From positions 1-37,930 of the forward strand of contig JALGTU010000015.1 of the NCBI GenBank assembly GCA_029821195.1: a stretch of 37,930 bases of DNA, written 5' to 3'. The notes under the pieces were generated by a model, which was not told where the DNA came from, made no database searches, and saw nothing but the letters and a program-made list of their open reading frames with translations. A program made the translations under genes and the position numbers. The stretch comes from Candidatus Zipacnadia bacterium. Lineage in GTDB: Bacteria > Armatimonadota > Zipacnadia > Zipacnadales > Zipacnadaceae. Each line of letters opens with the position of its first letter. Positions within the stretch are counted from its first letter, which is position 1. This document shows, piece by piece, positions 2,097-30,980 of the stretch.

Positions 2097-2140
2097 AAAC
2101 AGCGCCGGACACGGCGCCAGATGGCCGTAGCAATCGGTGG

Positions 2141-2159
2141 CACGGGCTTCCAGCCCGTG
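2141..2159. repeat. REP-like intergenic hairpin
   Basis: Perfect 8-bp inverted repeat CACGGGCT / AGCCCGTG around a TCC loop, in the gap between the nitroreductase and the aldolase. A smaller stem (GCGCC 2102-2106 with GGCGC 2113-2117) precedes it. No U-tract follows, so it resembles an interspersed palindromic element more than a terminator. Only one copy is seen in this window. Confidence 0.5.
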
Positions 2160-2219
2160 TTGGCACAGCCAGGGACCTCTACCAGCGAGATCTTTTTTGA
2201 CTAGGGAGGCACCGATGAG

Positions 2220-15240: not shown

Positions 15241-16335
15241 CTACATCTGTATCAACAGCCGCGCAATGTACCGCGCGGCCTCCGGCCGACCCAGGATGGC
15301 GCTCGCCTCGGCCATTGCCCGGCGTTGCTCCTCATCACGATACAGAGCAAGTATCGCGTCTGCAAGAGTCGGGCCGGACAGATCAGCGTCCACGATGACC
15401 ACCGCACCACCTACCTTCGCCACCGCAGCAGCGTTGTAGCTCTGGTGGTGGGCAGCGTGGGGGTAGGGCACCAGTATCAGCGGCTTGCCCAATGCGGTGG
15501 CTTCCCCGATGCTGCTGGAGCCCGCGCGGCTGACGATCAGATCTGCCGCGGCCATGGCCGCTCCCATCTGCTCCAGAAAGGCAAAACACCAGTACGCGGG
15601 GGGCACCAGCCCAAGCCTGTCAGTTTCTGCTTTCACCACATCGTAGTCACGCCGCCCCGCCAGATGGACGATTTGGAGGTCAGGCTCGGCCACGAGCGTG
15701 GGCAGGGCCGCCAGTAGCGCCTGGTTGATACTGCTGGCCCCCTGGCTCCCCCCGGTCACCAGAACGGTAAACTTATCGGCGTCCAAGCCCAGCAGTTCCC
15801 GTCCCTGCTGAGCGCCGGCAGTGAGTATCTGTTTGCGGACCGGGGCGCCGGTGGGGACAGTATTGGCTCCGGGGAGGTGTTCGGCAGTCTCAGCAAAGGC
15901 CAGTGTCACCAGCTTGGCCCCCCTGCTGAGCAGGCGGCCCGTCCGATCCGGGTAGGCGTCCCCAATGTGCACCACCCGCGGCACTCCTAGCAGCCGGGCC
16001 GCACTCATTACCGGCGCAGTCACGTAGCCGCCGGTGCCGAAGATTACCGTGGGACGAAAGCGGCGCAGCAGCCGGAGGGCCTGCGCCGTACTGCGCAGGA
16101 AAGCAAGACTACTGGGCACCAGCCTCCAGGAGAGTCCGTACGGGAAGGGCCGCGCAGAGATGAACGCCGCGGGTAGACCACTCTGGGCGAGAACCGGATT
16201 GTTACGGTCAGGTGCGGCGCCGATCAGCAGAATCTCGACACCATCGTCCCGGTCGCGAAGTTGCTCCCCCACGGCCAGAGCCGGGAAGAGGTGGCCGGCC
16301 GTCCCACCGCCTGCCAGCACTATCCGCGCGCTCAT
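15241..16335 (-). CDS. murG: MurG, lipid II-forming GlcNAc transferase
   Basis: 364 residues. It transfers GlcNAc from UDP-GlcNAc to lipid I at the inner membrane face. N-terminal GGGTAGHLFPALA (9-21), TGGYV (101-105), GGSQGASSIN (195-204), the UDP-binding RAGSSSIGEATALGKP region (Glu near 274) and PYPHAAHHQSYNA. The usual HEQN segment of the acceptor-binding region reads HIGDA (123-127), so E, Q and N are all replaced. The start overlaps the ftsW stop as ATGA, showing translational coupling. It is the last wall gene in the cluster; murC and murB do not follow. Confidence 0.93.
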   Translation of the reverse strand: MSARIVLAGGGTAGHLFPALAVGEQLRDRDDGVEILLIGAAPDRNNPVLAQSGLPAAFISARPFPYGLSWRLVPSSLAFLRSTAQALRLLRRFRPTVIFGTGGYVTAPVMSAARLLGVPRVVHIGDAYPDRTGRLLSRGAKLVTLAFAETAEHLPGANTVPTGAPVRKQILTAGAQQGRELLGLDADKFTVLVTGGSQGASSINQALLAALPTLVAEPDLQIVHLAGRRDYDVVKAETDRLGLVPPAYWCFAFLEQMGAAMAAADLIVSRAGSSSIGEATALGKPLILVPYPHAAHHQSYNAAAVAKVGGAVVIVDADLSGPTLADAILALYRDEEQRRAMAEASAILGRPEAARYIARLLIQM

Positions 16336-17492
16336 CGGCTACCGTTACCCCCGCGCCTGCCGTTGTGCCGGGCTACAGCCAGCACCAGGCCGGCTGCCAC
16401 CATCGAGCTGACCAGACTGCTGCCGCCCGCGCTGACAAAGGGCAGCGTCAGGCCAGTAGGGGGAATCACGGCGGTAGCAACGGCAATGTTCACGAAGGCC
16501 TGCAGCGTGAGGGCGACCCCGATGCCGGCGGCTAGATACAAACCCAGGCGACTATTACTGCTGCGCCCGATCCGGAAGGCCAGCGCGGCCAGCAGGACCA
16601 CCAGGAACAGCACCCCCAGCGCACCCCACAGCCCGAGCTCTCCGGCGATGACGCAGTATATCGAGTCAGTGTGCGGGAAGGGCAGAGTCTTCCACTTGTC
16701 CGGGCTCATCCCCAGCCCACTGCCAAATAGCCCACCCCGCGCTATGGCGATAAGCATGCTGTAAATGTGATATCCCGCCTGGTGGATATACTCTTCGGGC
16801 TGAAGCCAGGCCTTAATACGCATCACGATATAGGGCTTGGTGAGCGCAAATGATATGCCCGCGGCCAACAGCGACAGCGCGATCGGCACCAGGTAGCGCA
16901 GACGCGCGCCGCCCAGGAAGGCCAACGCCAGGGCCAGCAACACCACCAGCATAGCCATGCCCTGGTCGGACTGCTTGATCAGCAGCCCAATCATCAAGCC
17001 AGTAGCCACAACTATGGGCAGGACCACTGTATATAGATTCTTGCGGTTCATCGGGCCCCGGGCCAGGTAGAGCGCCACTGTCGCCACGTAGGCGACCTTG
17101 GCAAACTCTGAGGGCTGAACGCCCCAAAGCCAGCGGTGGGCACCGCCTATCTCTCGGCCCCAGATCGCCGCCGCCGCCATTGCGATCAGTCCAATCAGGA
17201 AGGCGGGGCGACTGAGCCGCTCAATTAGCTTCAGCGGCAGCAGGCTGACGACCACCATTCCCAGCAGGCCGTAACCGGCATGCTTCAACTGACTCTTCAG
17301 AAAGAAGTAGGCATCACCGTCACCGTAGCCGGGGGTGGGCCGACCCGCCAGCGGGAAGCTGGAAGAGAATACAAAGACGATCCCCAACACTACCAGTCCG
17401 TAGACCACCAGCAGAAAGCGTCGGCCAACCGGCCCGTACGCGCCATCGTATTCATTTCGCTCCGCTGCACCGAGTTGCGCAACACTTACCAC
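16332..17492 (-). CDS. ftsW: FtsW, septal peptidoglycan glycosyltransferase (SEDS family)
   Basis: 386 residues, about ten membrane spans. It polymerises lipid II at the septum together with the class B PBP encoded upstream. Seen: WGVQPSEFAK (about 124-133), QSDQG with the catalytic Asp (about 175), FPHTDSIYCVIAGELG (about 275-290) and PFVSAGGSSL (about 355-364). Start is GTG at 17492, 3 nt after murD, with AAGGGGG 8 nt upstream. RodA is an alternative SEDS identity, but position between murD and murG identifies FtsW. Confidence 0.93.
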   Translation of the reverse strand: MVSVAQLGAAERNEYDGAYGPVGRRFLLVVYGLVVLGIVFVFSSSFPLAGRPTPGYGDGDAYFFLKSQLKHAGYGLLGMVVVSLLPLKLIERLSRPAFLIGLIAMAAAAIWGREIGGAHRWLWGVQPSEFAKVAYVATVALYLARGPMNRKNLYTVVLPIVVATGLMIGLLIKQSDQGMAMLVVLLALALAFLGGARLRYLVPIALSLLAAGISFALTKPYIVMRIKAWLQPEEYIHQAGYHIYSMLIAIARGGLFGSGLGMSPDKWKTLPFPHTDSIYCVIAGELGLWGALGVLFLVVLLAALAFRIGRSSNSRLGLYLAAGIGVALTLQAFVNIAVATAVIPPTGLTLPFVSAGGSSLVSSMVAAGLVLAVARHNGRRGGNGSR

Positions 17493-17495
17493 AGC

Positions 17496-18902
17496 TTACT
17501 GCCCCCTTGCGGCTTCCTGCTGCGCGATCTGCCGCGCCAGGCGGGTGAAGGTCTCGCCCCGGTGGACCTGATCCTGGAACATATCGAAGCTGGCGCAGCC
17601 GGGCAGCAGCACAATAGTGTCACCGGGCGCGGCGCGCCGGTAGCATTCTTCGACGGCTTGGTCCATACTGACCGCGGCGATAGTGTCAGTAGCGCCGCCG
17701 ATGGCTGCCTCCAGGGCCGGGCCACTTTCGCCGATCAGGCAAACAAGCTTGGCCCGCTCGCCCAGTCGGTGCCCAAACTGGCTGAAATCGGCCCCTTTGC
17801 TCTGGCCTCCAGCGATGACCAGAACCGGCCCAGACAGGGTAGTCAGGTCGGCCATCGCCGCCGCGGTGTTGGTCGCCTTCGAATCGTCAATGAACTTGAT
17901 GCCGCGCACCTCGACCACTTCCCGCAGCAAGTGATCCGCTGGCTCGAATTTCTTCAGCCCCTCCGCCATTTGCCCAGCAGTCGCGCCGCACAGCCCGGCA
18001 GCCAATCCGGCGGCCAGCGCATTGGTCACATTGTGCAGGCCCGGGACGGGCATATCCTCGGCAGCAAGGATGCGCTGCGGCCCCGCGCCAGTCTCCACGA
18101 CCAGGTAGCCCTCCTCCACTCGCCCGGCGGCATCCTGCGAACGGGCGGAGACCGCCAGCAGCGTGCTCGGCACCTGCGTTTGCATCGCGGCCACAGTAGG
18201 GTCGTCAATACAGAGTATGGCGTAGTCATCGCCGGTCTGATTGCGAAACAGGCGGGCTTTGGCGGCGCCATACTCAGCCAGGTCGGCGTGGCGGTCGAGG
18301 TGATCGGGCGTAATGTTGAGCAGGATGGCTATATACGGCCGGAAGTGCATGGTCGTCTCAAGCTGAAAGCTGCTGACCTCCACCACCATAACCTCCGCCT
18401 GGTCTGCCCGGTCAATCTGACTGATGACGGGCAGGCCGATATTCCCGGCGACCACGTTGGGAATGCCGGCGGCATCCAGCATATGACCCGTCATCATTGT
18501 CGTGGTGCCCTTGCCATTAGTGCCAGTGATAGCGACCATCGGCACCGGGCACAGCCGATAGGCCAACTCGATCTCACCGATGACCTCGATGCCCGCGACG
18601 CGCGCCTCGGTCAGCGCAGGATGCTCGCGGGGCACCCCGGGGCTAATTACTATCAGATCCACGTCGCCCAGTTGGCTCAACCCGCCGAATTCAGCGACCA
18701 CCTCTGCGCCCAGGCTGGTCACCTCGTGATGCGCATCAGCCAGTTCGGCGGCGGTCTTGGCATCGGCACCGACGACCTGCGCGCCGCGATTAAGCAGGTA
18801 ACGCACACTAGCCAGGCCGGTGCGCGCCAGGCCCACGACCCCCACGCGCTTGCCACTTAGATCAGTTTCTTCTCCGAAAACAGTATGCCCAGGGAGCGTC
18901 AT
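17496..18902 (-). CDS. murD: MurD, UDP-MurNAc-L-Ala:D-Glu ligase
   Basis: 468 residues. It adds D-Glu to UDP-MurNAc-L-Ala using ATP. A Rossmann-like N-domain begins at KRVGVVGLARTG (18-29). The P-loop GTNGKGTT (127-134) has G where most MurD have S. EVSSFQLE, NITPDHLDRH, GLHNVTNALAA (central domain) and IDDSKATN plus PGCASFDMF (C-domain) follow. AGGAG is 7 nt from the ATG. It is packed 9 nt after mraY and 3 nt before ftsW, so it is part of one transcript. Confidence 0.95.
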   Translation of the reverse strand: MTLPGHTVFGEETDLSGKRVGVVGLARTGLASVRYLLNRGAQVVGADAKTAAELADAHHEVTSLGAEVVAEFGGLSQLGDVDLIVISPGVPREHPALTEARVAGIEVIGEIELAYRLCPVPMVAITGTNGKGTTTMMTGHMLDAAGIPNVVAGNIGLPVISQIDRADQAEVMVVEVSSFQLETTMHFRPYIAILLNITPDHLDRHADLAEYGAAKARLFRNQTGDDYAILCIDDPTVAAMQTQVPSTLLAVSARSQDAAGRVEEGYLVVETGAGPQRILAAEDMPVPGLHNVTNALAAGLAAGLCGATAGQMAEGLKKFEPADHLLREVVEVRGIKFIDDSKATNTAAAMADLTTLSGPVLVIAGGQSKGADFSQFGHRLGERAKLVCLIGESGPALEAAIGGATDTIAAVSMDQAVEECYRRAAPGDTIVLLPGCASFDMFQDQVHRGETFTRLARQIAQQEAARGQ

Positions 18903-18911
18903 TTGCGACTC

Positions 18912-19886
18912 CTAAAGCAGACTGATCGCCATAAGAATCCCGGCACCGGCGGCTACTGCACCGACCAGCCAGAAGCGCACTACTATCTGCGGCTCTGCCC
19001 AGCCGCGCAGTTCGAACGCGTGATGGATCGGCGTCATTGCAAATACCCGCCGTCCGGTCCGGCGGAACCAGAGCACCTGGATGATGACCGTCAGAGTCTC
19101 GACCACAAACACCAGAGCCGCCACCGCGAAGACGAGCTCGATACCGGCGGCAACAGCAATGCCTCCCAGCAGCGCGCCCAGCCCGATGCTGCCCACATCA
19201 CCCATAAAGATCTGGGCGGGATGGGCGTTGAGCCACAGGAACCCGGCGCTCGCTCCGGCGACCAGAACCGACAGCATGGCAAGCTGGGGCGCCCCGGTCA
19301 GCCAACAGATCACGGCCAGGGCCAGCGCACACTCGCTCACCAGCCCGGCCGCCAGACCATCCAGCCCGTCGGTCAGGTTAACTGCGTTGGCACTGGCAAC
19401 TATCACCAGCGCGCCCAGTATTATCCGCGCGGGGCCCGGCCAGGCGCTGAAGCCCAGCAGCATGCTGCCGCCGATAGCGGGTTCGCCGGTGATGAACCAG
19501 GCAAAGCCCAGGGCGACCAGCAACTCGGCGGTCAGGCGATAGCGCGCTTTGATGCCCAAAGTGGCCTGCTGGCGGGATTTGACGTAGTCATCAATAAAGC
19601 CCAGCACGGCCAATACCACCATCAACCACAATACGCCCAGTATCTGCCAGCCGCCTGCGTGGTCAACCTTGACTATCAACAGGCCGACGACCACCACAAC
19701 CGCCAGCACAGACAACCCACCCAGGGACGGTGTGCCCTGTTTGCGTTGATGCCGACTGGGCGCATCTTCCCGCACTGTTGCCCGCCAGTTGAACCACCGG
19801 GCTACCGAGACGTTGAGGGCAGTCAGCGCCGCCGCCGCCAGCAACACACCCACAAAGAGGGTCAAGGCTGCCGCCAGGTCAGACAT
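18912..19886 (-). CDS. mraY: MraY, phospho-MurNAc-pentapeptide translocase
   Basis: 324 residues with about ten membrane spans. It makes lipid I by moving phospho-MurNAc-pentapeptide to undecaprenyl phosphate. Motifs: HQRKQGTPSLGG (46-57), FIDDYVKS (97-104, catalytic Asp pair), NAVNLTDGLDGLA (167-179), GDVGS (229-233) and MTPIHHAFELRGW (284-296). The HHH cluster usual here reads HHA. The start overlaps murF by 8 nt. Confidence 0.95.
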   Translation of the reverse strand: MSDLAAALTLFVGVLLAAAALTALNVSVARWFNWRATVREDAPSRHQRKQGTPSLGGLSVLAVVVVVGLLIVKVDHAGGWQILGVLWLMVVLAVLGFIDDYVKSRQQATLGIKARYRLTAELLVALGFAWFITGEPAIGGSMLLGFSAWPGPARIILGALVIVASANAVNLTDGLDGLAAGLVSECALALAVICWLTGAPQLAMLSVLVAGASAGFLWLNAHPAQIFMGDVGSIGLGALLGGIAVAAGIELVFAVAALVFVVETLTVIIQVLWFRRTGRRVFAMTPIHHAFELRGWAEPQIVVRFWLVGAVAAGAGILMAISLL

Positions 19887-21246
19887 AGTCCATCAATCCT
19901 TTCACCACCCGCTCCAGGGCCATCCCCCGTGAGCCTTTCACCAGCACAACATCCGATGAGATGAGCTCTGCGGCGAGCAAGTCAACTGCTTCATCCGGGT
20001 GTTCTACTGTGTCTGAACGGACGCCCGCTGCCGCTGCCTCTTCGGCCGCCAGGGCTGCCCATTCGCCCAGCGCAACCAGCCACTCAATGCCCTTCTCAAC
20101 ACAGAGCCGACCGACGCGGCGGTGTTCTTCTTCCGATGCCGGCCCTAGCTCGAGCATATCCCCGAAGACAAAGATCTTGCGGCCGGGCAACTCCACCAGC
20201 ATGTCCAGCGCTGCAACGACAGAATGGGGTGCTGCATTGTACGCGTCGTCAATCAGCGTAGTGCCCCGGGCCAGTATGTGCACTTCGCACCGCATCTCCT
20301 CGAGCGGACAGTTCGCCAAGCCCTCGGCAATACACTCCGTCGAGTCGGTCACCGCCCACGCTGCGGCCGCTGCGGCTGCAGCATTGAAGACGTTGTGCAT
20401 ACCTGGCAAGGCAATCTTCGCCGATACGGTCTCAGCCCCGATGCTCAGCCGCAGGTCTGCTCCTTCCAACCCCCGCAGCTTAACATTCTCGATACGCACA
20501 TCAGCGCTGGGGTTCACGCCAAACGATACCGTTCGGCAGGGCGCCAGCTCGGCAAACAGGTGGTAATAAAAGTCATCGGCGTTGAGCACGGCCATGCCGT
20601 CTTGCGGCAGGGCATGCAGCAACTCGGCCTTGGCCTGGGCGATGGCGTCACGGCTGCCCAGTCGGCCCAAATGCGTCTGCCCGATGTTAGTTATGAGGCC
20701 CACGTCGGGCGCAGCTAGCTCCGCCAGGTATGCTATTTCCCCGCGGCCGCGCATCGCGAACTCCAACACACAGTGCCGATGCTCGCCGTCCAGTGACAAC
20801 AGCACACGAGGCACACCGACCTCGTTGTTCTGATTGCCCGGCGAGATCAGCGTCGGCCCCTGCCTGGCCAGTATCGCGCCGATCATATTCTTGGTGGTAG
20901 TCTTGCCAACACTGCCAGTGACTGCGACCACCGACAGATCAAACTGCCGCCGATACCAACCCGCCAGCTTACCGTACGCGGCCACAGTATCGGCTACGAC
21001 GACCAGTGACCGGCCCTCGGGCAGATCGTTCCGTTCTCGGCTTACCACAGCGGCCGGCGCACCAGCGGCAAAGGCCTGCGCCAGGAAGTCGTGGCCGTCG
21101 AAGTTCTCGCCGCGCAGGGCGACGAACAGGTCTCCGGCCCGGAGGGTGCGGCTGTCAGTCGAGACACCGTGAACTTCGCTGTCGCCGCCTCCTCCATGTA
21201 GTTCGCCTCCGGTTGCCTCAGCTACTTGTGCCAATGTGATTCTCAT
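19879..21246 (-). CDS. murF: MurF, D-Ala-D-Ala adding ligase
   Basis: 455 residues. It joins D-Ala-D-Ala to UDP-MurNAc-tripeptide. N-domain DSRTLRAGDLFVAL (about 31-44), P-loop GSVGKTTT (111-118), NQNNEVGVP, EFAMRGRGEI, NIGQTHLGRLGS, PGMHNVFNAAAA and DDAYNAAPHS (C-domain, with the DxYNANP-type motif as DAYNAAP). It begins 11 nt after murE and overlaps mraY. Confidence 0.95.
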   Translation of the reverse strand: MRITLAQVAEATGGELHGGGGDSEVHGVSTDSRTLRAGDLFVALRGENFDGHDFLAQAFAAGAPAAVVSRERNDLPEGRSLVVVADTVAAYGKLAGWYRRQFDLSVVAVTGSVGKTTTKNMIGAILARQGPTLISPGNQNNEVGVPRVLLSLDGEHRHCVLEFAMRGRGEIAYLAELAAPDVGLITNIGQTHLGRLGSRDAIAQAKAELLHALPQDGMAVLNADDFYYHLFAELAPCRTVSFGVNPSADVRIENVKLRGLEGADLRLSIGAETVSAKIALPGMHNVFNAAAAAAAAWAVTDSTECIAEGLANCPLEEMRCEVHILARGTTLIDDAYNAAPHSVVAALDMLVELPGRKIFVFGDMLELGPASEEEHRRVGRLCVEKGIEWLVALGEWAALAAEEAAAAGVRSDTVEHPDEAVDLLAAELISSDVVLVKGSRGMALERVVKGLMDYV

Positions 21247-21257
21247 GTCCGTTCTAC

Positions 21258-22757
21258 TTACACTCCGGTCTCAAGTTGGCTGAGTGCTTCCCGTGCCACT
21301 TCGCGATCGTCAAAGGCTATCGTCTCGTCGCCGATTATCTGGCAGGTCTCGTGACCTTTACCGGCAATCACCAGGATATCCCCGGCCCGGCATTGTGCCA
21401 CAGCCTCAAAGATCGCTTGCTGTCGGTCCGCCTCGGTGGTGTAGTCGCCGCCGGTTGCTCCGGCAACGATTTCGTCTATGATAGCCTGCGGGTCTTCCGA
21501 GCGCGGGTTATCGGACGTGATTATTGTAAAGTCGGCGATCGAAGTGGCGATTCGGCCCATCTGCGGTCGTTTACCGCGGTCGCGATCGCCGCCGCACCCG
21601 AATACACACAGCAGCCGTCCCGGCCGCAGCGCCCGCGCCGCCCGCAACACGCTGTCCAGCGCATCCGGCGTGTGCGCATAGTCAACTATAACCGTAAAAT
21701 CCTGCCCTTCATCAATTCGCTCGAAGCGGCCGGGGACTTGATCCAGCCGCTCCAGGCCCGTGCCAATTTGCTGGGGCTCGATGCCCAACCCCCAGCCGCA
21801 CGCCGCTGCGGCCAGCGCGTTGTACAGATTAAACTCTCCCGTCAGCTTGAGCTTGACCGCCAGCGGCTCGACTTCAGGCAGGATCAGTCGCAGCTCTATG
21901 CCCTCAGGGCCAATCTGGGCGTTTGCCGCAGTCACCATCGCTGCCGGGTCGAGTCCATACGTGACGGTCCGTGCCGCTGTCATCTCCCGGATGCGCACCC
22001 CGGCGGCATCGTCAATATTGACAATCGCGACCATGCATTTGCTCGGTTCGGCGAGCGCAACGTAATCAGTGAATAGGCGCAGCTTGGCGGCGAAATAGTC
22101 GCCCAGGTCGGCGTGAAAGTCGAGGTGGTCCTGGCTCAGATTCGTGAATACGGCGGCGTCGAATTGGCACATCCAGGTGCGGTCCAGCGCCAGGCCATGT
22201 GAGGAGACTTCCATAGTCACGTGGGTGACGTCGGCATCTCGCATCTGCGCCAGCAGCTCCTGCAGCTCGACGCTATCAGGCGTGGTTCGGTCGGCGGCAA
22301 GCTGCTTGCCCGCGATGAACCGCGCAGTTGTGCTCACCAATCCCGTGCGCACCCCCCCGGCTCGAAAGATGCTGTCAACCAGGAAAGCGGTTGTGGTCTT
22401 CCCGTTGGTTCCGGTGACACCGACCAGCGTCAGGTTCTCGGAGGGATGGTCCCAGAACTCGGCGGCGATTTCAGCGGCAGCCCGCCGCGAGTCGGGCACC
22501 GCAATAGCGGTGACATGATCGGGTACGAGCTGAGCGGAGTGGTCATCCTGGTAGACCACGGCGCTCGCGCCTCGGGCCACAGCGGCGGGGATGAAGTCGT
22601 GGCCGTCGGCAGCGTAGCCCTCTACGGCCACAAATATGTTCCCGGGCGTCACTCGCCGCGAGTCTACGGTAACGCCCGTGATAGCTGGGGTTGAGACCAG
22701 GCGCCGACTATCGGCCCAACGCCCGGTCAGATTGTCCAAGGTCTTATCAGGCGACAC
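21258..22757 (-). CDS. murE: MurE, UDP-MurNAc-L-Ala-D-Glu:meso-DAP ligase
   Basis: 499 residues from a GTG at 22757. P-loop GTNGKTTT (116-123), MEVSSHGLALDR (182-193), the carbamylated-lysine segment YFAAKLRLF (K225 region), VDYAHTPD (358-365), FGCGGDRDRGKRP (386-398) and SDNPRSEDP (415-423). The DNPR motif marks meso-diaminopimelate specificity rather than lysine, so the wall should be DAP-type. It lies 29 nt after ftsI. The Shine-Dalgarno sequence is weak (GGAAG). Confidence 0.95.
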   Translation of the reverse strand: MSPDKTLDNLTGRWADSRRLVSTPAITGVTVDSRRVTPGNIFVAVEGYAADGHDFIPAAVARGASAVVYQDDHSAQLVPDHVTAIAVPDSRRAAAEIAAEFWDHPSENLTLVGVTGTNGKTTTAFLVDSIFRAGGVRTGLVSTTARFIAGKQLAADRTTPDSVELQELLAQMRDADVTHVTMEVSSHGLALDRTWMCQFDAAVFTNLSQDHLDFHADLGDYFAAKLRLFTDYVALAEPSKCMVAIVNIDDAAGVRIREMTAARTVTYGLDPAAMVTAANAQIGPEGIELRLILPEVEPLAVKLKLTGEFNLYNALAAAACGWGLGIEPQQIGTGLERLDQVPGRFERIDEGQDFTVIVDYAHTPDALDSVLRAARALRPGRLLCVFGCGGDRDRGKRPQMGRIATSIADFTIITSDNPRSEDPQAIIDEIVAGATGGDYTTEADRQQAIFEAVAQCRAGDILVIAGKGHETCQIIGDETIAFDDREVAREALSQLETGV

Positions 22758-22786
22758 ACTGAATCGCTTCCGTTCACACGTTACGG

Positions 22787-24604
22787 TCAGGTACCGTCGG
22801 GCCGTGCCGATGTTTCCGGGACCCGAGGGCCGCCTTCTTGCAGCATATACACCGCGATCTCGCGGGCGACCGGCGCCGCCACTGTCGAGCCGTGCCGGTT
22901 CTCTCCTCGGACCCTGGCGGTTACCAGGATAACAAAACGCGGCGTGGCGTCAAGTGGCGCCACCAGCACAAAACTGACTATATGCTGCCCCTCGAGCCAT
23001 TTTCGCTTCTTGGAATCCCAGATCTGTGCCGTGCCCGTCTTGCCCCCGACTGCAACTCCCTCGATCTGCGCCCGCAGGCCGGTGCCGTGTTCGACGGCTC
23101 CGCGGATCAGACTACGAACGATCCGGGAAGTCTCCTCCGAGCATACCCGCCTGATCGGCACGGGATTCACCTGCCGGTAGACGCTGCCATCCGCATTAAG
23201 CACCCGGTCCACGACGTACGGCTGCATCAGCACGCCGCCGTTGACCACCGCAGATACTGCTGCCACCAATTGGAGATCGGTCACTGCCACGCCTTGGCCA
23301 AAGCCCATATTGGCCACGTCGCGCTCGTACATCTTCTTTGAGTCCCGCAAGCTTCCCGCTGCCTCACCCGGGAAACCAGCCCGAGTATATGCACCTAACC
23401 CACAGCGCCGCAAGAACTTCACGTACCGTTCGGCACCAACTTTCGTAGCAGTTAGCGCGGCGCAGATGTTGCACGATTTGGCGATCATCCCCGCCATGTT
23501 CAGCCGACCATGCCCCCCGTTGCTGGCCCACCGACCCCAGCACTTCAACGGCTTGCCGCCCACCTCTGTGGTCCCAGGACAGTAGAAGGTATCGGTGAGG
23601 CTGACCGCGCCGCTGTCCAGCGCTGCCGCCGCCAGCAGTACCTTGAAGGTACTGCCCGGCTCGTACGCGCGGGTGACCGACAGATTGACCAGATTCCTTG
23701 GGGGAATGTCCACCCGGGCGACGCCCGTACCAGCGGAGGCAATGGTGTTGGGATCATAGTTGGGGCGACTGGCCAGAGCCAGAATCGCACCGGTACCCGC
23801 GTCCATGACCACCGCCGTAGCCTCGTCGGGGTCTTCGCGCTGCCAGCACCGGGCCAGGGCATCATCCACCACTCTTTGCAGGTCCCAATCCACCGTCAGG
23901 ACCAGATCCTTGCCGGGCACAGCCGGCAGCGCCGGCTGGTTCTCCATTCCTACTATCCTGCGCCCCCAGGCATCCTGGTTCACAAGCGGCGTGCCCTCAC
24001 GCCCCTGCAAGACGAAGCGGTACCGGCGCTCCAGCCCGCCCAACGGCCGGTGATCGCTGCTGAAATAGCCCAACAGGTGACAGCCGACCTCGCCTTCGGG
24101 GTACACGCGCTTGTACTCCAGGTCCTGGGTTATGCCCGCCAGCCGCCGGGCCAGGACCTGTTCCGCAGTATCCAGCGGTACTCGCCGCTCCAGGTAGGCA
24201 AAATCACGCTCACTGTTGAGCTTCTGCTCGATCTGCTCAACTGGTATACCCAGAACACTGTTCAGATACCGGCTCGCCTCGCCAACATCCTCATAGCGTC
24301 GCAATAGCTTGGGGTCAACCTTCAACGAGGCAGTCACGACGCTGTCGGCCACTATTCGCCCCCGCCGGTCACGGATAGCGCCCGGCTGGGGAACTGCGGG
24401 GCGATGGGGGGGATCAACACGGGCGGCTACCGCCAGGAAATGATCGCGGTTAATAAGCTGGACATAGACCAGGCGAGCCGCTAATCCGAGAGCTAGAGCG
24501 ATAATACCAATCAGCATCGCCCGCAGCACCCGCCGCTCAGGGAGGCCGTTGCCGCGGGCCGCCGATGGCCCGGCTATGCTGTGAGCAAGGCGGCTACTGT
24601 TCAC
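22787..24604 (-). CDS. ftsI: FtsI-type class B penicillin-binding protein (septal transpeptidase)
   Basis: 605 residues from the GTG at 24604; GTG at 24607 is equally possible, and the open frame further up overlaps ftsL. One membrane span (about 27-48), then a PBP dimerisation domain and a transpeptidase domain with EPGSTFK (Ser318, Lys321), SCN (377-379) and GGKTGT (520-525). It cross-links septal peptidoglycan on the outer side of the membrane with FtsW. There is no C-terminal PASTA domain, unlike many Gram-positive homologues; the tail after about 585 is short. Gene order ftsL-ftsI-murE identifies it as the division PBP. Confidence 0.92.
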   Translation of the reverse strand: MNSSRLAHSIAGPSAARGNGLPERRVLRAMLIGIIALALGLAARLVYVQLINRDHFLAVAARVDPPHRPAVPQPGAIRDRRGRIVADSVVTASLKVDPKLLRRYEDVGEASRYLNSVLGIPVEQIEQKLNSERDFAYLERRVPLDTAEQVLARRLAGITQDLEYKRVYPEGEVGCHLLGYFSSDHRPLGGLERRYRFVLQGREGTPLVNQDAWGRRIVGMENQPALPAVPGKDLVLTVDWDLQRVVDDALARCWQREDPDEATAVVMDAGTGAILALASRPNYDPNTIASAGTGVARVDIPPRNLVNLSVTRAYEPGSTFKVLLAAAALDSGAVSLTDTFYCPGTTEVGGKPLKCWGRWASNGGHGRLNMAGMIAKSCNICAALTATKVGAERYVKFLRRCGLGAYTRAGFPGEAAGSLRDSKKMYERDVANMGFGQGVAVTDLQLVAAVSAVVNGGVLMQPYVVDRVLNADGSVYRQVNPVPIRRVCSEETSRIVRSLIRGAVEHGTGLRAQIEGVAVGGKTGTAQIWDSKKRKWLEGQHIVSFVLVAPLDATPRFVILVTARVRGENRHGSTVAAPVAREIAVYMLQEGGPRVPETSARPDGT

Positions 24605-24693
24605 CACTGAGGCCCTCGGATTAAGAAAGAATAAGCTGCCAATTGGCAGCCCAGCGGACCAGCGCCTGGCCCTTGCCCGTCGCCCCCATCCGG

Positions 24694-25152
24694 TCAAAAA
24701 CTGTCGGCAACAACAACCCGATGACCGATACTGACCGGCTCGGGACCAGCGGGCCCCGGACGGCTGGCCACAGCCTCCGGGTGCGGGGTTAGCGGCGAAA
24801 TGGTCCATTGCTGCTGGGGCAAAGCCGGCAACTGTACTAAGTCCGTCGCCTCAGGATTAAAGACCATGTTGGCACGGTCGGCGAATTCGCGCAAGCGCGC
24901 GCGATCGCGCAGCGCGGCTACCCGGTGCCAGAGCTGGCGCTGTGTAGCCGTCTGCTTAGCAATCTGGCGGTCTAGGCTGCGCACCTGAAGCTCCAATACC
25001 GACACGCGGGCACAGAACACCAGAAAGAGAATACTAGCCAGGCCTATACAGCTAATTATCAGGCCCGGCCAAATGATCTCGCGCCAGATTATGCGCAGCT
25101 TGCTTCGCCTCCGCACTGAAGCCTGGCTGGTGCGCCCCCGGTTTTTGCTCAC
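24694..25152 (-). CDS. ftsL: FtsL-like bitopic division protein
   Basis: 152 residues from the GTG at 25152, with AGGAGGT 7 nt upstream. A basic N-terminus (about 1-25), one membrane span (about 27-47), then a short coiled-coil-like segment (about 50-95) with LELQVRSLDRQIAKQ, and a Pro-rich tail. FtsL proteins bridge the FtsI/FtsW synthase and other divisome parts and have very little sequence identity. The call rests on topology and position between rsmH and ftsI. Confidence 0.75.
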   Translation of the reverse strand: MSKNRGRTSQASVRRRSKLRIIWREIIWPGLIISCIGLASILFLVFCARVSVLELQVRSLDRQIAKQTATQRQLWHRVAALRDRARLREFADRANMVFNPEATDLVQLPALPQQQWTISPLTPHPEAVASRPGPAGPEPVSIGHRVVVADSF

Positions 25153-25279
25153 CGCTATGACCTCCTGCGCTGGTTGTCTCCAGCCCGCCGGGGCTGATTG
25201 CACCGAAGTTTGAGGGGGGGTGGGTGCCCGGCTGCGGCCCCTGCTCCGAGCTGTCTGCTTGTCTGGTTGCAGTTATTAC

Positions 25280-25308
25280 TTGATTCCCTGCATCAATTAT
25301 GCTACAAT
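25280..25308 (+). promoter_or_regulatory. Sigma-70-like promoter antisense to the dcw cluster
   Basis: TTGATT (25280-25285), a 17-nt spacer and TACAAT (25303-25308) on the plus strand lie in the 241-nt gap between rsmH and ftsL. Transcription would run antisense into rsmH. No convincing plus-strand gene follows. The gap itself holds no plausible protein. Confidence 0.35.
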
Positions 25309-25393
25309 GCAGGTTACCTTGGTGCTGTGAACTGTGCTGTGATTGGTGGTGTGTGTTTGCCGCCACTGGTGCTGCTACTGGCACCCACCCTCC

Positions 25394-26401
25394 CTATTCT
25401 CGGTCGCTCCCCTTCGATGTTGCGATTTCGTGGTCCCCATGCGTCTGTCGCTCGTCCTCGCCCAACGCTCGTACTGCATGCAGGCGACACGACCGCATCT
25501 GCGGACTGCGCTGTACTTCCGCCCGCTCTGGACTCAGCGCCTTGCGCACCGCCAGCTCCACAAGCGGCTGCTTACCGCAAACGCATGGGAGGGCGGGAGG
25601 ACAAGTGCAAGGGTTGCTCAAGCGCCTTAGCTCTTGCCTAGCCAGCCGATGCTCGTGGCCTGCCCAGGTTAATACCACCAAGCGTCCTGTGGCTGGTTGG
25701 AGAGCTTCGGCCGCAGTCTGCAACCCCCGGCGCAGCTCAGCTAGTTCGTCGTTTACTGCGACTCGAATCGCCATCAGCCATCGTGCAGCCGGGTTTCGTT
25801 GCTTTCCCCGGCCGGGGCGACTCACCGTTGCTGCGATCAGTTCTGCGAGCTGAGCCGTGGACTGAATCGGGCCGCTTCCCTCCCTGAACGACACGATTCG
25901 TGCTGCCACCTTCCTTGCCTCCCGCCCTCTCCCGGTTACCCTGAGAACGTCATAAAGCTGCTGTTGGGAATAGTTGTTGACCACCTCGTATGCGGTCAAC
26001 GCCTGTCGGCGGTCCATACGCATGTCCAGCGAGGAGGCGCTCGCGAAGCTGAATCCCCGTTCCAGATCGAGCATCTGATCCATAGATATCCCGGTATCAA
26101 TCAAGATGCCGTCCACCCGCTCGATCTGCGCTTCGGCCAGAACCTGCGCCAGCTCGGAAAAACGTTGTCGAAAGAGCTGGACGCGGTCACCGAAGCGCGC
26201 CAGGCGCCGCCGCGCCATGTCCAGGGCCTGTTCGTCACGGTCTATGCCGAGCAGCCGTCCCCCCGGGGCTGAAGCCTCCAGGATCAGCTCGGCATGACCA
26301 CCGCCGCCGACAGTCATGTCTACGTACGTTCCTGCGGGCTGGATGTCAAGGTGCGCCAACACCTGTTCGGGCATCGCCGGTTGGTGCTGCGACCGGGTCA
26401 A
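25394..26401 (-). CDS. rsmH: RsmH, 16S rRNA C1402 N4-methyltransferase
   Basis: 335 residues from a TTG at 26401 that overlaps the mraZ stop (TTGA). It methylates 16S rRNA. HQPAMPEQVL (6-15), VDMTVGGGGH (28-37) for SAM binding, IDRDEQALDMA, GFSFASASSLDMRMD, NPAARWLMAIRVAVNDEL, and the C-terminal Cys block CTCPPALPCVCG. Two usually strong motifs are altered: DLGVSS reads DTGISM, and SFHSLEDR reads TWAGHEHR. The last 20 or so residues are a charged extension. Starting at the TTG keeps the conserved His-x-Pro at the N-terminus. Confidence 0.92.
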   Translation of the reverse strand: MTRSQHQPAMPEQVLAHLDIQPAGTYVDMTVGGGGHAELILEASAPGGRLLGIDRDEQALDMARRRLARFGDRVQLFRQRFSELAQVLAEAQIERVDGILIDTGISMDQMLDLERGFSFASASSLDMRMDRRQALTAYEVVNNYSQQQLYDVLRVTGRGREARKVAARIVSFREGSGPIQSTAQLAELIAATVSRPGRGKQRNPAARWLMAIRVAVNDELAELRRGLQTAAEALQPATGRLVVLTWAGHEHRLARQELRRLSNPCTCPPALPCVCGKQPLVELAVRKALSPERAEVQRSPQMRSCRLHAVRALGEDERQTHGDHEIATSKGSDRE

Positions 26402-26880
26402 TGATCAGCTCCGTCAGACCCGCCGCTCCCTCCGGCATCTCCCCGAAGCAGTCTGCGGGCAATTTGCTTCAGCTCCTTGCCCCGCTCGGTCAGGAATTCG
26501 TTGTACCGCCCCACCTCCCAGATCTCGTAGCGATCATCCAGATAGATAAGCTGCGCCTCTTTACCCGCTTCCAGCCCGGCCCAGCGCAGCAACGGCTCGG
26601 GGATCTTGATCCGCCCCTGCTCGTCAATGGTGCACTCCTCGGCTCTGGCGATCAGCAGGCGTTTCAGATCGTGCAGGTCCGGATCCAGTGGGCTGGCGTT
26701 GGCGCGCACAAACTGCTGCTGGTATAGATCCCAGGCCTGGGGCACGAACAGGTTGATGCAGTTGTCAAACCCACACGCCAGCACGACAACTGAGGGCAGA
26801 CTTGCCCGCTGCTGCTCGCGCAGCTTGAGTCTGCTCGCAGAATCAAGCTTATGAATTGTTGCTCCCTGCGGGGCCACCAT
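26398..26880 (-). CDS. mraZ: MraZ, transcriptional regulator of the dcw cluster
   Basis: 160 residues from the ATG at 26880; longer in-frame starts would lie inside the promoter. It contains two AbrB-like half domains, each with the MraZ D-x-x-x-R signature: LDSASRLKL (about 13-21) and IDEQGRIKIP (near 85-95). MraZ forms rings and represses its own operon by binding short repeats in E. coli. Here such repeats lie between the promoter and this start. It is the first gene of the division cluster; its stop overlaps the rsmH start. Confidence 0.9.
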   Translation of the reverse strand: MVAPQGATIHKLDSASRLKLREQQRASLPSVVVLACGFDNCINLFVPQAWDLYQQQFVRANASPLDPDLHDLKRLLIARAEECTIDEQGRIKIPEPLLRWAGLEAGKEAQLIYLDDRYEIWEVGRYNEFLTERGKELKQIARRLLRGDAGGSGGSDGADH

Positions 26881-26909
26881 ACTATTCCAGTATGCTCCGC
26901 TTTTTCCCA
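26875..26909 (-). promoter_or_regulatory. Candidate MraZ operator (10-bp phased repeats)
   Basis: On the minus strand four 5-nt units occur at exact 10-bp steps: TGGGA (26905-26909), CGGAG (26895-26899), TGGAA (26885-26889) and TGGTG (26875-26879). They sit between the predicted transcription start and the mraZ ATG. E. coli MraZ binds TGGGN repeats with 5-nt spacers, so this fits autorepression. Confidence 0.65.
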
Positions 26910-26928
26910 GCTTAAACCTATGCAGACC

Positions 26929-26957
26929 ATTATAGTCCAACAACACGAACATGTCAA
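26929..26957 (-). promoter_or_regulatory. Consensus sigma-70 promoter of the dcw cluster
   Basis: Perfect TTGACA (26952-26957), 17-nt spacer, and perfect TATAAT (26929-26934) on the minus strand. Transcription should start near 26922, about 40 nt before mraZ. Confidence 0.88.
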
Positions 26958-27017
26958 GGGGTGGGGAAAGAAAAATCAATGGGGATGAAGAACGTCTCCA
27001 GCCAGGTGCAAACAGAA

Positions 27018-27042
27018 CGGGCCGACTGCAACAGCCGACCCG
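27018..27042 (-). terminator. Terminator of the rpe transcript
   Basis: An 11-bp stem (two G-U pairs) with a TTG loop, followed leftward by TTCTGTTTG. It is 44 nt after the rpe stop and separates rpe from the dcw promoter. Confidence 0.65.
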
Positions 27043-27086
27043 CCACAACACAGCATTATCGCTGACCTGGCAAGCTGGCCACCTGC

Positions 27087-27758
27087 TCAGCCCCCCCCGC
27101 TCACCGCCTCACGCAGCGACTCGATGCCCGCGCTCAGGCCCTCGGGGTGCTCGAAGAGGTACGAGCCGCAGATGAGTATCTCGGCACCGGCGGCGACCAG
27201 CTCCGGCGCGGTGTTCGGGTCCACGCCGCCGTCCACCGCGATGCGTGCTTCCGGGTTAAACTCCTCGAGCAGTTCGCGAGTTTGCCGGATCTTGGGCAGT
27301 ACCGAGGCCATGAACTCCTGCCCGGCGGTCCCGGGCTCGACGGTCATCAGCAGCACCAGATCTAGCTGGTCGGCGATCGTCTCCAACCCGGCGACGGGCG
27401 TAGCGGGGTTAAAGACCAGGCCCGCCAGCAAGCCGAGACTGCGGATATGGGCGAGCACATGTGCCGGCTGAGTGAGCGTCTCGCGCTGGACAAACAATGA
27501 GTCAGCGCCTGCTCGAGCAAAGCTCTCGATATGCTTGGTGGGGTTGCCCACCATCAGGTGGGCGTTGCAGTGTAGCTCGGTCTCGCCGCGCAGCGCTTCG
27601 ATGACAAGCGGGCCGAAGCTGATAGCATCCACGAACCAGCCGTCCATAACATCAAAGTGCAGCCACTGGGCCCCGGCCTCGGCAACTTCCCGGGCCTGCT
27701 CGCCCAGGCGACGAAAATCAGCACACAACATCGAAGGGGCAATCGAGATCTCGGGCAT
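27087..27758 (-). CDS. rpe: Ribulose-phosphate 3-epimerase
   Basis: 223 residues from the ATG at 27758, with AAAGGAG 8 nt upstream. It interconverts ribulose-5-P and xylulose-5-P in the pentose phosphate pathway. TIM-barrel motifs: APSMLCADF (7-15), LHFDVMDGWFV with metal His34/Asp36 and nearby Asp39, NAHLMV with His67, LLMTVEPGTAGQ loop, and AVDGGVDPN with the second catalytic Asp (about 176). It lies 51 nt after the membrane protein gene and probably shares its transcript. Confidence 0.93.
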   Translation of the reverse strand: MPEISIAPSMLCADFRRLGEQAREVAEAGAQWLHFDVMDGWFVDAISFGPLVIEALRGETELHCNAHLMVGNPTKHIESFARAGADSLFVQRETLTQPAHVLAHIRSLGLLAGLVFNPATPVAGLETIADQLDLVLLMTVEPGTAGQEFMASVLPKIRQTRELLEEFNPEARIAVDGGVDPNTAPELVAAGAEILICGSYLFEHPEGLSAGIESLREAVSGGG

Positions 27759-27809
27759 ATTGGGCACTCCTTTGGATGCTGGCTGCCCCGACGCAGCCGC
27801 GATGGATAC

Positions 27810-29408
27810 TTACTGCGTGGGCTCGTCCGTGGGCACAGGCGGATTGGGAGTGTAGCGCGGGCCATAGTCGCGCAGCTTATCCGCAAGCCTGGCCACAAGC
27901 AGCTTGGCTCCGGCTACCTGAATAATATCCCGACCGGCAGCGGCCAGCAGCGCCGGCTCGCCCTGCCAGCTCGCCCTACCCACTGCTGTCGCACCCTTCC
28001 GGCCCCCGATCAGTACTGTGTTCGGCTCATCCCATCCCGTCACCTCGACCAGTTGGCAAGCCGCCTGCCACATCTGCAGGCCAGCGCTGGCCAGTCCGGG
28101 GCGGTCCCGCCCGCCCGGCGCAGCGACCAGAACGGTCTCCTCGCCAACCTCGCCCAGGGTCATAGTCAAGCCCCACTGCTCCAGGAGCGGATCAGCCAGC
28201 GGATGGGAGACGGTCTGCTGCGGGCATTCCTGTTCCGCGACGGGCGGTGGTGGGCTGAACTGGGCCTCTTCGGGCATATCGGCGCCAGCTATCTCCGCGA
28301 GCGCTTGTCGCGCCGACGTTGCGGCCTGGCCCAGGCTAACCGGCCCCGGCTGCGCTCGTCCCACCCACCAGCCTTCCCTCTCACGGTCGGCAGCCAATAC
28401 CCAGCAGCCCTCAGCGACCTCGATCAGCAGAAGCTCGATGGCACCGGCCCGGGCAGCTTGCGCAAAAGCCTCGGCGCTCCCCACCAGCAGGCCCACGGCG
28501 TCGGCCAGCTTCGCCTCGTCGAGCACATCTTCCGCCTCCCACACCAGCACGCCCCCGCCAAACGGCGTTGTGCTGGCAGCAGTCACCACCGGCTTGACTT
28601 CGGGCTGCTCCTGCGGCTCGACTTCCGGCCCCACCTCAGGCTCCTCGGAAACAACCGGCAGGCGCGAGGTGTCGTCGGCGCGCTCCTCCTCCGCAGCCGG
28701 CATATCCACAATTACCCCGGGCGGTTCGCTGTCGGTCTCCTCAAGAGCCAGCATCAGCGACTCGCGTGAATCCAGATCGTCGTAGAACCCCGCCCTGACG
28801 CTGGGCTGAGGCAACTCCTCCGGCAGTTCGCGACCGCTGGGCGGCTCACTGACTTCATCCTCGTCGGATTCCATGAGCGCCGCCAGCAGTTCCCGCTGGC
28901 GCACAGCCTGATCGTCGTCCAGTGGCGCATACGCTTCGGCCCCAGCGCCGAAACCGAACTCGTCCGTCAGGTCGGAGGTCCATGTGTCCCGCACCACCCA
29001 CAGGAATATGGCGACCGCACAGATCTGCACCAAGACACCGGGCCAGTACAGCAGGTAGAAATAGCTGAAGCCGGCCCAGAAGCTGCCAGTGGTAACCTGG
29101 ACAGGAGCGGTCACCTGCGCAGTGATCACGCTGATGCCGCCACGGACGATAAGTCCCAGGAGGGTACCTACGAAGGCCCGACTGGCGCCAATAGAGCTAG
29201 CCGCCGCCACGGTCAACACCAGCAGATAGCAAATGATCTCGGCGATGAGCAGGGCCAGTGACCATAGCCCGACGGTGAGGGGGCGGCCCACTTGCGAGCT
29301 TTCCAGCAACACGGTCCCGGCGACCGCCACCACAACAGTGAAGATCAGCCACAAGACGATGCCAAGCGATGCGATTGGACCGGCGGTCGCTGGGGCCTCG
29401 CGGAGCAA
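27810..29408 (-). CDS. Membrane protein with two roadblock/LC7-like domains
   Basis: 532 residues from a TTG at 29408, chosen because AAAGGAGG lies 8 nt upstream; an in-frame ATG at 29435 has no such site. Four predicted spans (about 12-34, 45-70, 78-100, 110-138), then an acidic, Pro-rich linker (about 140-285). The first soluble domain (about 286-375) has the roadblock pattern: a strand, an AEAFAQAA helix, LLLIEVAEGCWVLAA, then a helix SARQALAEIA. The second (about 420-515) repeats it: VLVAAPGG, ASAGLQMWQAA, TVLIGGRKG, ALLAAAGRD and a final helix. Roadblock proteins such as MglB regulate small GTPases; no GTPase gene is adjacent. The fold call is inference from pattern. Confidence 0.55.
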   Translation of the reverse strand: MLREAPATAGPIASLGIVLWLIFTVVVAVAGTVLLESSQVGRPLTVGLWSLALLIAEIICYLLVLTVAAASSIGASRAFVGTLLGLIVRGGISVITAQVTAPVQVTTGSFWAGFSYFYLLYWPGVLVQICAVAIFLWVVRDTWTSDLTDEFGFGAGAEAYAPLDDDQAVRQRELLAALMESDEDEVSEPPSGRELPEELPQPSVRAGFYDDLDSRESLMLALEETDSEPPGVIVDMPAAEEERADDTSRLPVVSEEPEVGPEVEPQEQPEVKPVVTAASTTPFGGGVLVWEAEDVLDEAKLADAVGLLVGSAEAFAQAARAGAIELLLIEVAEGCWVLAADREREGWWVGRAQPGPVSLGQAATSARQALAEIAGADMPEEAQFSPPPPVAEQECPQQTVSHPLADPLLEQWGLTMTLGEVGEETVLVAAPGGRDRPGLASAGLQMWQAACQLVEVTGWDEPNTVLIGGRKGATAVGRASWQGEPALLAAAGRDIIQVAGAKLLVARLADKLRDYGPRYTPNPPVPTDEPTQ

Positions 29409-29548: not shown

Positions 29549-30373
29549 GTGGAAAAAGCCGTTGACGAACGCAATCGCCTCAACGACCTGAGCAACAAGC
29601 AGTGGCTGCGGGAGACCAAGAGCTTCTGGATGAGCAAGGCCCCACCGCGCGATGAGCTAAAGCGCCAGCACCCCGCCACCTTCTCCGAGTATGACATCGA
29701 ACGGCTCCTTCGTCTCTTCACCAAACCCGGCCAGACTGTCCTGGACCCTTTCGTCGGCGTCGGTTCGACGCTGATTGCCTGCCTGCGCACCGGCCGGCGA
29801 GCCATCGGCATCGAGCTGGTACCCCGCTGGCACGAGATCGCCCAGCAGCGCCTAGCCGCCGAAAGCGGCGATGGCATCCCTGAGCAGATCTCCCTGCTCC
29901 ACGGCGACGCCAGCGCCGAGCTGGCGGAGATGGAATCCGAGAGCATTGACTTTGTGGTCACCAGCCCGCCGTACTGGAGCATCCTGAACAAGGCCAGTGA
30001 GAAAGTGGGTGCCGAGCGCACCAGTCGCGGCCTGCCCACCAACTACAGCGACGATGGGCAGAACCTGGGCAACATCGAGGATTACGGGGAGTTTCTGACG
30101 AAGCTGGGTGAGATATTCGGCCAGTGCACCCGGGTGCTGCGCAGTAGGCAGTACATGGCCGTGATCGTCTCCGACTTCCGCCACGGCCCCCGCTATTACC
30201 TGTACCACGCCGATCTGGCCCGCGAGATCGAACAGCGCGGCATGGTGCTCAAGGGCGTTACCGCCCTGCTCCAGGACAGCAAGAATCTTTACGCCTACGG
30301 CATTCCCTACGCCTTCGTCCCCAACATCCACCATCAGCAGATCATAATCCTTCAAAAACCCGAATCCGCCTAG
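29549..30373 (+). CDS. Solitary N4/N6-type DNA methyltransferase
   Basis: 274 residues from a GTG at 29549. SAM motif I is LDPFVGVGST (65-74), and the catalytic motif is TSPPYW (138-143). Motif I precedes the catalytic motif, which is not the beta-class order. SPPY is typical of N4-cytosine enzymes but not decisive. Near the N-terminus LSNKQWLRETKSFW and HPATFS, and later NIEDYGEFL, VSDFR and VPNIHHQ, resemble a family of stand-alone methylases known from archaea and thermophiles (recollection). There is no clear Shine-Dalgarno sequence. No restriction gene is adjacent, so an epigenetic or orphan role is likelier than defence. The AMMECR1 gene follows after 17 nt. Confidence 0.85.
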   Translation: MEKAVDERNRLNDLSNKQWLRETKSFWMSKAPPRDELKRQHPATFSEYDIERLLRLFTKPGQTVLDPFVGVGSTLIACLRTGRRAIGIELVPRWHEIAQQRLAAESGDGIPEQISLLHGDASAELAEMESESIDFVVTSPPYWSILNKASEKVGAERTSRGLPTNYSDDGQNLGNIEDYGEFLTKLGEIFGQCTRVLRSRQYMAVIVSDFRHGPRYYLYHADLAREIEQRGMVLKGVTALLQDSKNLYAYGIPYAFVPNIHHQQIIILQKPESA

Positions 30374-30390
30374 ATGGGTAGGTGATGACG

Positions 30391-30945
30391 ATGCTCAGCG
30401 ACCAGCAGAAGCGCAGGCTGATCGAAGTGGCGCGGCAGTCGCTGCACGCCGCAGTGGCGGGCGGACCCCCGCCAGACCTGCAAACCGATGACCCCCAATT
30501 GCTCGAGCCTCGCGGCGCTTTCGTCACTCTGAAGAAGGCCGGGCAACTGCGCGGCTGCATCGGCTACATCGAGCCCCGCGTGCCACTCATCGAGGCCGTA
30601 GCAGACAACGCAGAGTCCGCCGCCCTGCATGACCCCCGCTTCACGCCGGTAACCTCCGAGGAGCTGCCCGATATTGAGCTTGAGATCTCAGCGCTAACGC
30701 CGCTGGTGCCGGTCACGGATGTTGAGGAGATTGAAGTAGGTCGCCACGGGCTGGTTATCTCGCGGGGACCTTATCGTGGCCTGCTGCTGCCGCAGGTGCC
30801 GGTGGAATGGGGCTGGGACCGCGAGGAGTTCCTCGAGCACACCTGCCTCAAGGCCGGGCTGCCCGCCGACGCCTGGCGCCGAGAAGACGCCGAGCTGGTG
30901 AGCTTTGAGGCAGAAGTGTTTTCGGAGGAAGTACTGAGGTCTTGA
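30391..30945 (+). CDS. AMMECR1-domain protein (AmrA-like)
   Basis: 184 residues from the ATG at 30391, preceded by GGGTAGGTG; ATG 30385 and GTG 30382 are in-frame alternatives overlapping that site. The domain signature is visible: GAFVTLKKAGQLRGCIGYIEP (about 42-62, with the LRGCIG core), AVADNAESAALHDPRF (about 70-85), ELPDIELEISALTPL, and VPVEWGWDREEFLEHTCLKAGLP near the C-terminus. In many bacteria and archaea this domain is encoded with Memo-like and radical SAM genes (AmmeMemoRadiSam). Those partners are missing here; instead it sits between a DNA methyltransferase and a secreted phosphoesterase. Its biochemical function is not established. Confidence 0.9.
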   Translation: MLSDQQKRRLIEVARQSLHAAVAGGPPPDLQTDDPQLLEPRGAFVTLKKAGQLRGCIGYIEPRVPLIEAVADNAESAALHDPRFTPVTSEELPDIELEISALTPLVPVTDVEEIEVGRHGLVISRGPYRGLLLPQVPVEWGWDREEFLEHTCLKAGLPADAWRREDAELVSFEAEVFSEEVLRS

Positions 30946-30980
30946 GCCTCCCGACACAATGCAATATATTGGAGTCTACG

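Follow-up and report, generated by a model that had tools for sequence, protein, structure and literature searches.

A membrane-anchored tandem roadblock protein encoded before rpe and the dcw cluster in Candidatus Zipacnadia, with relatives in MglA gene clusters

The window, by which we mean the whole stretch of DNA analyzed, comprises 37,930 nucleotides from Candidatus Zipacnadia bacterium, a member of the Armatimonadota (GenBank assembly GCA_029821195.1, contig JALGTU010000015.1). The gene under study lies, as originally predicted, between rpe and a divergent DNA-methyltransferase-like gene, and a dcw cluster follows beyond rpe (Table 1). The sequence upstream of the gene, AGGAGGGAGCTAATTTG, has AGGAGG at good spacing before the TTG at 29408, which supports the earlier choice of that codon as the likely start. 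Judging from its homologues, which rule out a chance open reading frame, this is a real gene: proteins found across the order share its three-part build at 20 to 60% identity. From its N terminus, the encoded chain has four membrane spans, then a disordered linker rich in acidic residues, and finally two roadblock/LC7 domains.

Table 1. Features of the tandem roadblock locus and of related loci
Feature	Locus	Position	Strand	Basis or remark
Membrane-anchored tandem roadblock protein gene	Window	27810..29408	minus	532 aa; TTG start; AGGAGG Shine-Dalgarno just 5'
Four-transmembrane anchor, residues ~12-150	Window	28959..29375	minus	AlphaFold2 and family alignment
Membrane-proximal helix, residues 165-182, RQRELLAALME	Window	28863..28916	minus	Alignment and AlphaFold2
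Acidic disordered linker, residues 183-277	Window	28578..28862	minus	AlphaFold2 and alignment
Roadblock domain 1, residues 279-373	Window	28290..28574	minus	AlphaFold2 topology and hhalign
Roadblock domain 2, residues 406-513	Window	27870..28193	minus	AlphaFold2 and Foldseek
rpe	Window	27087..27767	minus	Co-directional, 42 bases downstream of the tandem roadblock gene
dcw: mraZ, rsmH, ftsL, ftsI/spoVD-type PBP, murE, murF, mraY, murD, ftsW, murG	Window	15241..27051	minus	
DNA-methyltransferase-like and AmmeMemoRadiSam system A genes	Window	29549..30945	plus	Divergent, context only
DNA-methyltransferase-like gene	Window	29549-30373	plus	Divergent neighbor of the tandem roadblock gene
Roadblock-less form	L032 (G009)	1585-2418		
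Roadblock-less form	L034 (G012)	about 5160-6044		
Second four-span gene	L038	9917-10699		
Second four-span gene	L037	4735-5535		
Second four-span gene	L039	3739-4512		
Second four-span gene	L042	9152-9958		
Second four-span gene	L035	2136-2813		
Second four-span gene	L040	6033-6533		

The full protein was modeled with AlphaFold2 on an alignment of 15 homologues (A1), which places membrane helices at about residues 12 to 37, 47 to 66, 75 to 100, and 110 to 150. Within them, E57 and Y61 of span 2 and R89 of span 3 are present in all 25 family members aligned there. The most conserved residues of the family lie in this anchor and in the RQxxLLAALM helix, the latter being the cytosolic motif with the highest conservation. 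Lys and Arg average 2.0 before span 1 and 5.1 after span 4 across the family, with 0.3 to 0.6 in the loops, and this flanking of spans 1 and 4 by basic residues suggests that the N and C termini are probably both cytosolic. The linker contains 28 Asp/Glu, 6 Lys/Arg, and 14 Pro in 95 residues (183 to 277), with a DDTSRLPVV motif close to its C-terminal end; it is acidic, as had been predicted, whereas the linker as first delimited, put at 145 residues, is nearer 130, with a conserved helix inside.

The prediction of two roadblock domains carried together on a single membrane-anchored chain is borne out by AlphaFold2, Foldseek, and profile comparisons; the roadblock fold is predicted, and the domains are present in homologues across the order. 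In the full-length model, both domains run bb-a-bbb-a, with pLDDT mostly 80 to 94, in keeping with the a-bb-a-bbb-a roadblock fold, domain 1 without the first helix. The limits first proposed, residues 286 to 375 and 420 to 515, come close to those of the model. Modeled alone from 22 sequences, domain 2 reaches a pLDDT of 91.9 and a pTM of 0.85, and its top 21 Foldseek matches in the PDB are all roadblock proteins, including p14/LAMTOR2 (p14/MP1, Ragulator), Myxococcus MglB, and an archaeal roadblock protein of Prometheoarchaeum. The best of them, p14/LAMTOR2, has E = 3.8e-3, a probability of 1.00, and TM scores of 0.66/0.68, with no match under 1e-3. Foldseek with the full-length model gave weak matches only, HPPD and PCNA first and MglB at rank 28, because the two-domain arrangement misled the search; the single-domain model resolved the matter.

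Homology to Robl_LC7 is likewise found by hhalign and the family profile. Against soluble Robl_LC7 proteins of the class, hhalign gives 93.7% for domain 1 and a weaker 58.9% for domain 2, and the two domains match each other at 96.3%, with controls at about 0.1%. The family profile matches four stand-alone Robl_LC7 proteins (G003:C60, G006:C40, G022:C12, and G042:C60; E of 9.5e-9 to 4.8e-4), which score 57 to 64 bits with the Pfam Robl_LC7 model. The window protein itself has no Pfam Robl_LC7 (PF03259) match at the gathering cutoff and nothing above any Pfam or NCBIfam cutoff, matches no chain in a PDB sequence search, and as a query in a search for related loci found none; its homologue at locus L024 has a subthreshold Robl_LC7 match at domain 1 (E = 0.087). 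An NCBIfam hit (NF009143, E = 9e-4, residues 236 to 321) was discarded, as it covers mainly linker and is far under its cutoff.

The anchor profile finds exactly one copy in each of 35 of the 41 genomes of the order, mostly just 5' of rpe-mraZ-dcw, and the A1 profile matches 33 of the 41 (18 of 20 genera), with G022 counted only through a match to a soluble roadblock protein. Wherever the contig is long enough in families f1, f3, and f5, rpe follows the gene on the same strand, and at most of these loci mraZ, rsmH, ftsL/ftsI, and mur genes come after rpe. Between the gene and the rpe match lie 5 to 83 bases in f1 and 216 to 1415 in f3 and f5; for the f2 and f6 copies, rpe linkage was not seen within the stretches examined. 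The dcw linkage may reflect mere shared expression or gene-order inertia.

Directly after the tandem roadblock gene, or overlapping it, families f3 and f6 have a second four-span membrane gene. Comparison of its product with the TM-roadblock gene of Mgl clusters, described below, gives 17% in hhalign (E = 0.0015; controls at most 0.3%), which is only suggestive of homology and carries no weight in what follows. On the other side, divergent DNA-methyltransferase-like and AmmeMemoRadiSam system A genes flank the gene in many relatives. Farther along the window, two overlapping plus-strand ORFs (30942-31544 and 31507-31965, each in its own frame) resemble a single phosphoesterase-like protein split by a frameshift or assembly error, and 34377-35081 (minus) encodes a membrane protein of the CPBP type, for which the archaeomyxosortase MrtA model gives E = 2.8e-24, below its cutoff.

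Elsewhere in the phylum, a four-transmembrane (4TM) protein of ~320 residues is encoded directly upstream of mglA. Its anchor aligns with that of the window protein, which shares the invariant Glu of span 2, the Arg of span 3, and the near-invariant Tyr of span 2; the window copy precedes rpe rather than adjoining mglA. Between the window family and the mglA-linked anchors, hhalign gives 95.5% over 153 columns if the Zipacnadia copies from Mgl clusters are counted in and 58.9% over 78 columns if they are left out, while unrelated membrane controls reach at most 1.3%. Among 291 genomes of the phylum, MglA (E <= 1e-15) is detected in 19 and the anchor (E <= 1e-6) in 50. Outside the order, the anchor occurs as a single copy in 15 of 250 genomes, 5 of which supplied rows of the anchor profile, leaving ten independent; every one of the 15 belongs to the 17 MglA-positive genomes there. 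For 14 of them, the anchor gene maps to the mglA cluster, the G042 copy being on another contig. In Armatimonadota, the 4TM protein is thus a candidate for tethering the MglA switch to the membrane.

Tandem-roadblock relatives also occur beside MglA, in clusters of G041, a genome of the same class, and of G017, which belongs to family f4 of the order. The gene order there is TPR-roadblock, 4TM-linker-tandem roadblock, TM-roadblock, roadblock (MglB-like), MglA, roadblock, DUF4388-like, receiver-like, PilM, PilN, and PilO, where MglA, roadblock, and anchor matches were tested by HMM and the remaining names are a reading of the sequence; the MglA-roadblock-Pil order recurs on truncated contigs of G022 and G042. 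With the anchor HMM of the window family, the G017 protein scores E = 9.4e-12, and the domain HMMs match the G041 protein at E = 4.4e-10 (domain 1) and a partial G042 protein at E = 5.5e-8. Because the G041 protein, which sits in an mglAB/pilus cluster, has the linker repeats of the MglA neighbors (E = 1.5e-9) as well as tandem roadblocks, features of both types stand on one chain. The claim of a new architecture is therefore only partly right, since MglA-linked relatives have the same build. Loci L126, L127, L128, and L129 of Ca. Zipacnadia carry MglA-roadblock-PilMNO clusters with several roadblock proteins each, TPR-roadblock and TM-roadblock among them.

In a tree of the anchor, with a root of our choosing, Mgl-linked copies fall outside the rpe-linked ones, though the backbone is weak (support 40 to 66). 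This tree, and the fact that the Mgl-linked form is the more widespread of the two in the phylum, favor an ancestral Mgl-linked anchor, which would have gained tandem roadblocks in Ca. Zipacnadia before MglA was lost and the linkage to rpe-dcw arose. The protein might still be part of the type IV pilus/PilMNO machinery, localizing or gating it, with its place near dcw incidental: right after the genes of the MglA-linked relatives come DUF4388-like and PilM-like genes, and the window's own genome keeps a cluster of PilM, PilN, PilO-like, and secretin genes on contig C205. However, the tandem roadblock gene and PilM are on different contigs (C118 versus C205), and the connecting MglA layer is gone; we consider this reading unlikely, though a serious contender.

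In genus g4 (G009 and G012), the gene stops after the linker, directly before rpe and within about 20 bases of it, and both roadblock domains are absent. As g4 kept anchor and linker without them, the roadblocks are not always needed. The functional part could then be the 4TM anchor with the linker helix, the roadblocks being dispensable accessories and the protein a small factor of the envelope or of division that shares its regulation with rpe-mraZ-dcw, which would fit the peak of conservation in the anchor and RQxxLLAALM helix. A soluble roadblock gene was not found in any of the three g4 genomes, a further point in favor of this idea. Nonetheless, almost all other full-length members, including those only 20% identical, keep both roadblock domains with conservation at the level of the fold, and a protein that works through its anchor and helix seems to us rather unlikely. 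The co-loss in g4 also hints at a partnership between the tandem pair and the soluble roadblock protein; it is a hint only because losses in one genus may be a single event. A third candidate for a roadblock-less form, in G026, was not counted, as the gene that follows there encodes a further membrane protein that may contain a degenerate roadblock domain.

The MglA profile, built partly from f4 sequences, scores E = 1e-116 or better in the two f4 genomes, whereas the window's genome and 38 of the 40 others in the order have no match. The relation seen outside the order is thus reversed inside it, where G017 alone has MglA among the 35 genomes with the anchor. Since the window's genome is a draft of 237 contigs (95% complete), the absence is strong mainly because it is repeated across the order. 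PF00071 has no match in the window's genome at 1e-6, but it also missed the known MglA genes of G017 and G022 and was dropped as an MglA test. Matches to PF00025 (Arf family) in the order were rejected as MglA because their frames, of about 430 to 790 codons, are too long, none being a Ras-like gene of roughly 200 codons; the window's genome has a single one, of 664 codons. With no MglA detected in the window's genome or in most others of the order, MglB-like GTPase control is unsupported here; what survives of the predicted Mgl link is the tie of the anchor family to MglA elsewhere in the phylum. That the protein is a membrane-bound MglB-type GAP still regulating a small GTPase in this organism is hence highly improbable, although its roadblock fold is nearest LAMTOR2 and MglB in Foldseek and in G041 and G017 its relatives have mglA and mglB-like genes as neighbors.

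We think it reasonably probable that the protein is a membrane-tethered roadblock scaffold, formerly of an Mgl/type IV pilus system and now a GTPase-independent envelope platform, the most likely reading because the known GTPase is missing here. The analysis establishes the fold, the anchor homology, the Mgl linkage of relatives, the lack of a detectable MglA, and the gene context; topology, domain pairing, partners, and current role are inferred, as follows. The four spans would fix the protein in the inner membrane with its C terminus in the cytosol, and a flexible acidic arm, bearing the conserved RQxxLLAALM helix, would hold two roadblock domains at its tip. These may pair with each other as a preformed dimer or with the genome's single soluble roadblock protein, encoded on contig C73. 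The ancestor would have been the anchor protein of an MglA/MglB-type IV pilus (PilMNO) gene cluster; MglA would then have been lost from nearly all genomes of the order, leaving the gene at the head of an operon-like run, rpe-mraZ-dcw. The platform could recruit the soluble roadblock protein, division proteins, or PilM-type pilus proteins through Ragulator-like tethering, and may serve division, as the gene context suggests, or pili, as its ancestry suggests. More tentatively, the scaffold of a polarity module may have outlived its Ras-like switch and, heading the division cluster, become a GTPase-free platform for division or envelope growth. If true, the persistence throughout a bacterial order of a conserved roadblock pair on a membrane anchor, after its known partner GTPase was lost, would amount to a natural experiment on how roadblock platforms act alone.

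Discussion of bacterial roadblock proteins usually centers on their regulation of small GTPases. In Myxococcus, MglB is the GAP of MglA (PMC9481161). Like MglB and other Robl_LC7 (PF03259) proteins, the window protein has the roadblock fold, here in both C-terminal domains, with Foldseek matches to MglB structures 6izw and 6hjm; unlike MglB, which is short, soluble, and single-domain, it joins two such domains to a 4TM anchor by a long linker, and MglA is undetected. In the conservons of Streptomyces (CvnA-D), a roadblock protein is similarly associated with the membrane, as part of a complex (PMC4316618); no conservon-type histidine-kinase-like or CvnD-like gene is among the annotated neighbors of the tandem roadblock gene. 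A literature search found no paper joining "roadblock" with Armatimonadota. The MglA-adjacent 4TM proteins (L155 10591-11610 and L153 8752-9717) have a homologous anchor with the same Glu, Arg, and near-invariant Tyr but differ in their PLxxVxPQLP-type repeats, their lack of roadblock domains, and their place beside mglA. The tandem-roadblock proteins of Mgl/PilMNO clusters (L126 8752-11913 and L127 6367-8904) have the same build, with anchor or domain homology detectable by HMM, but are encoded with roadblock, MglA, and PilMNO genes and have longer linkers with repeats. Ragulator tethers roadblock pairs at the membrane for Rag GTPases (PMC5680233). It comprises several chains held by p18, recruits the Rag GTPases, and is not a homologous system; the analogy, to which p14/LAMTOR2 as the top Foldseek match adds, lies in a membrane tether that presents roadblock pairs.
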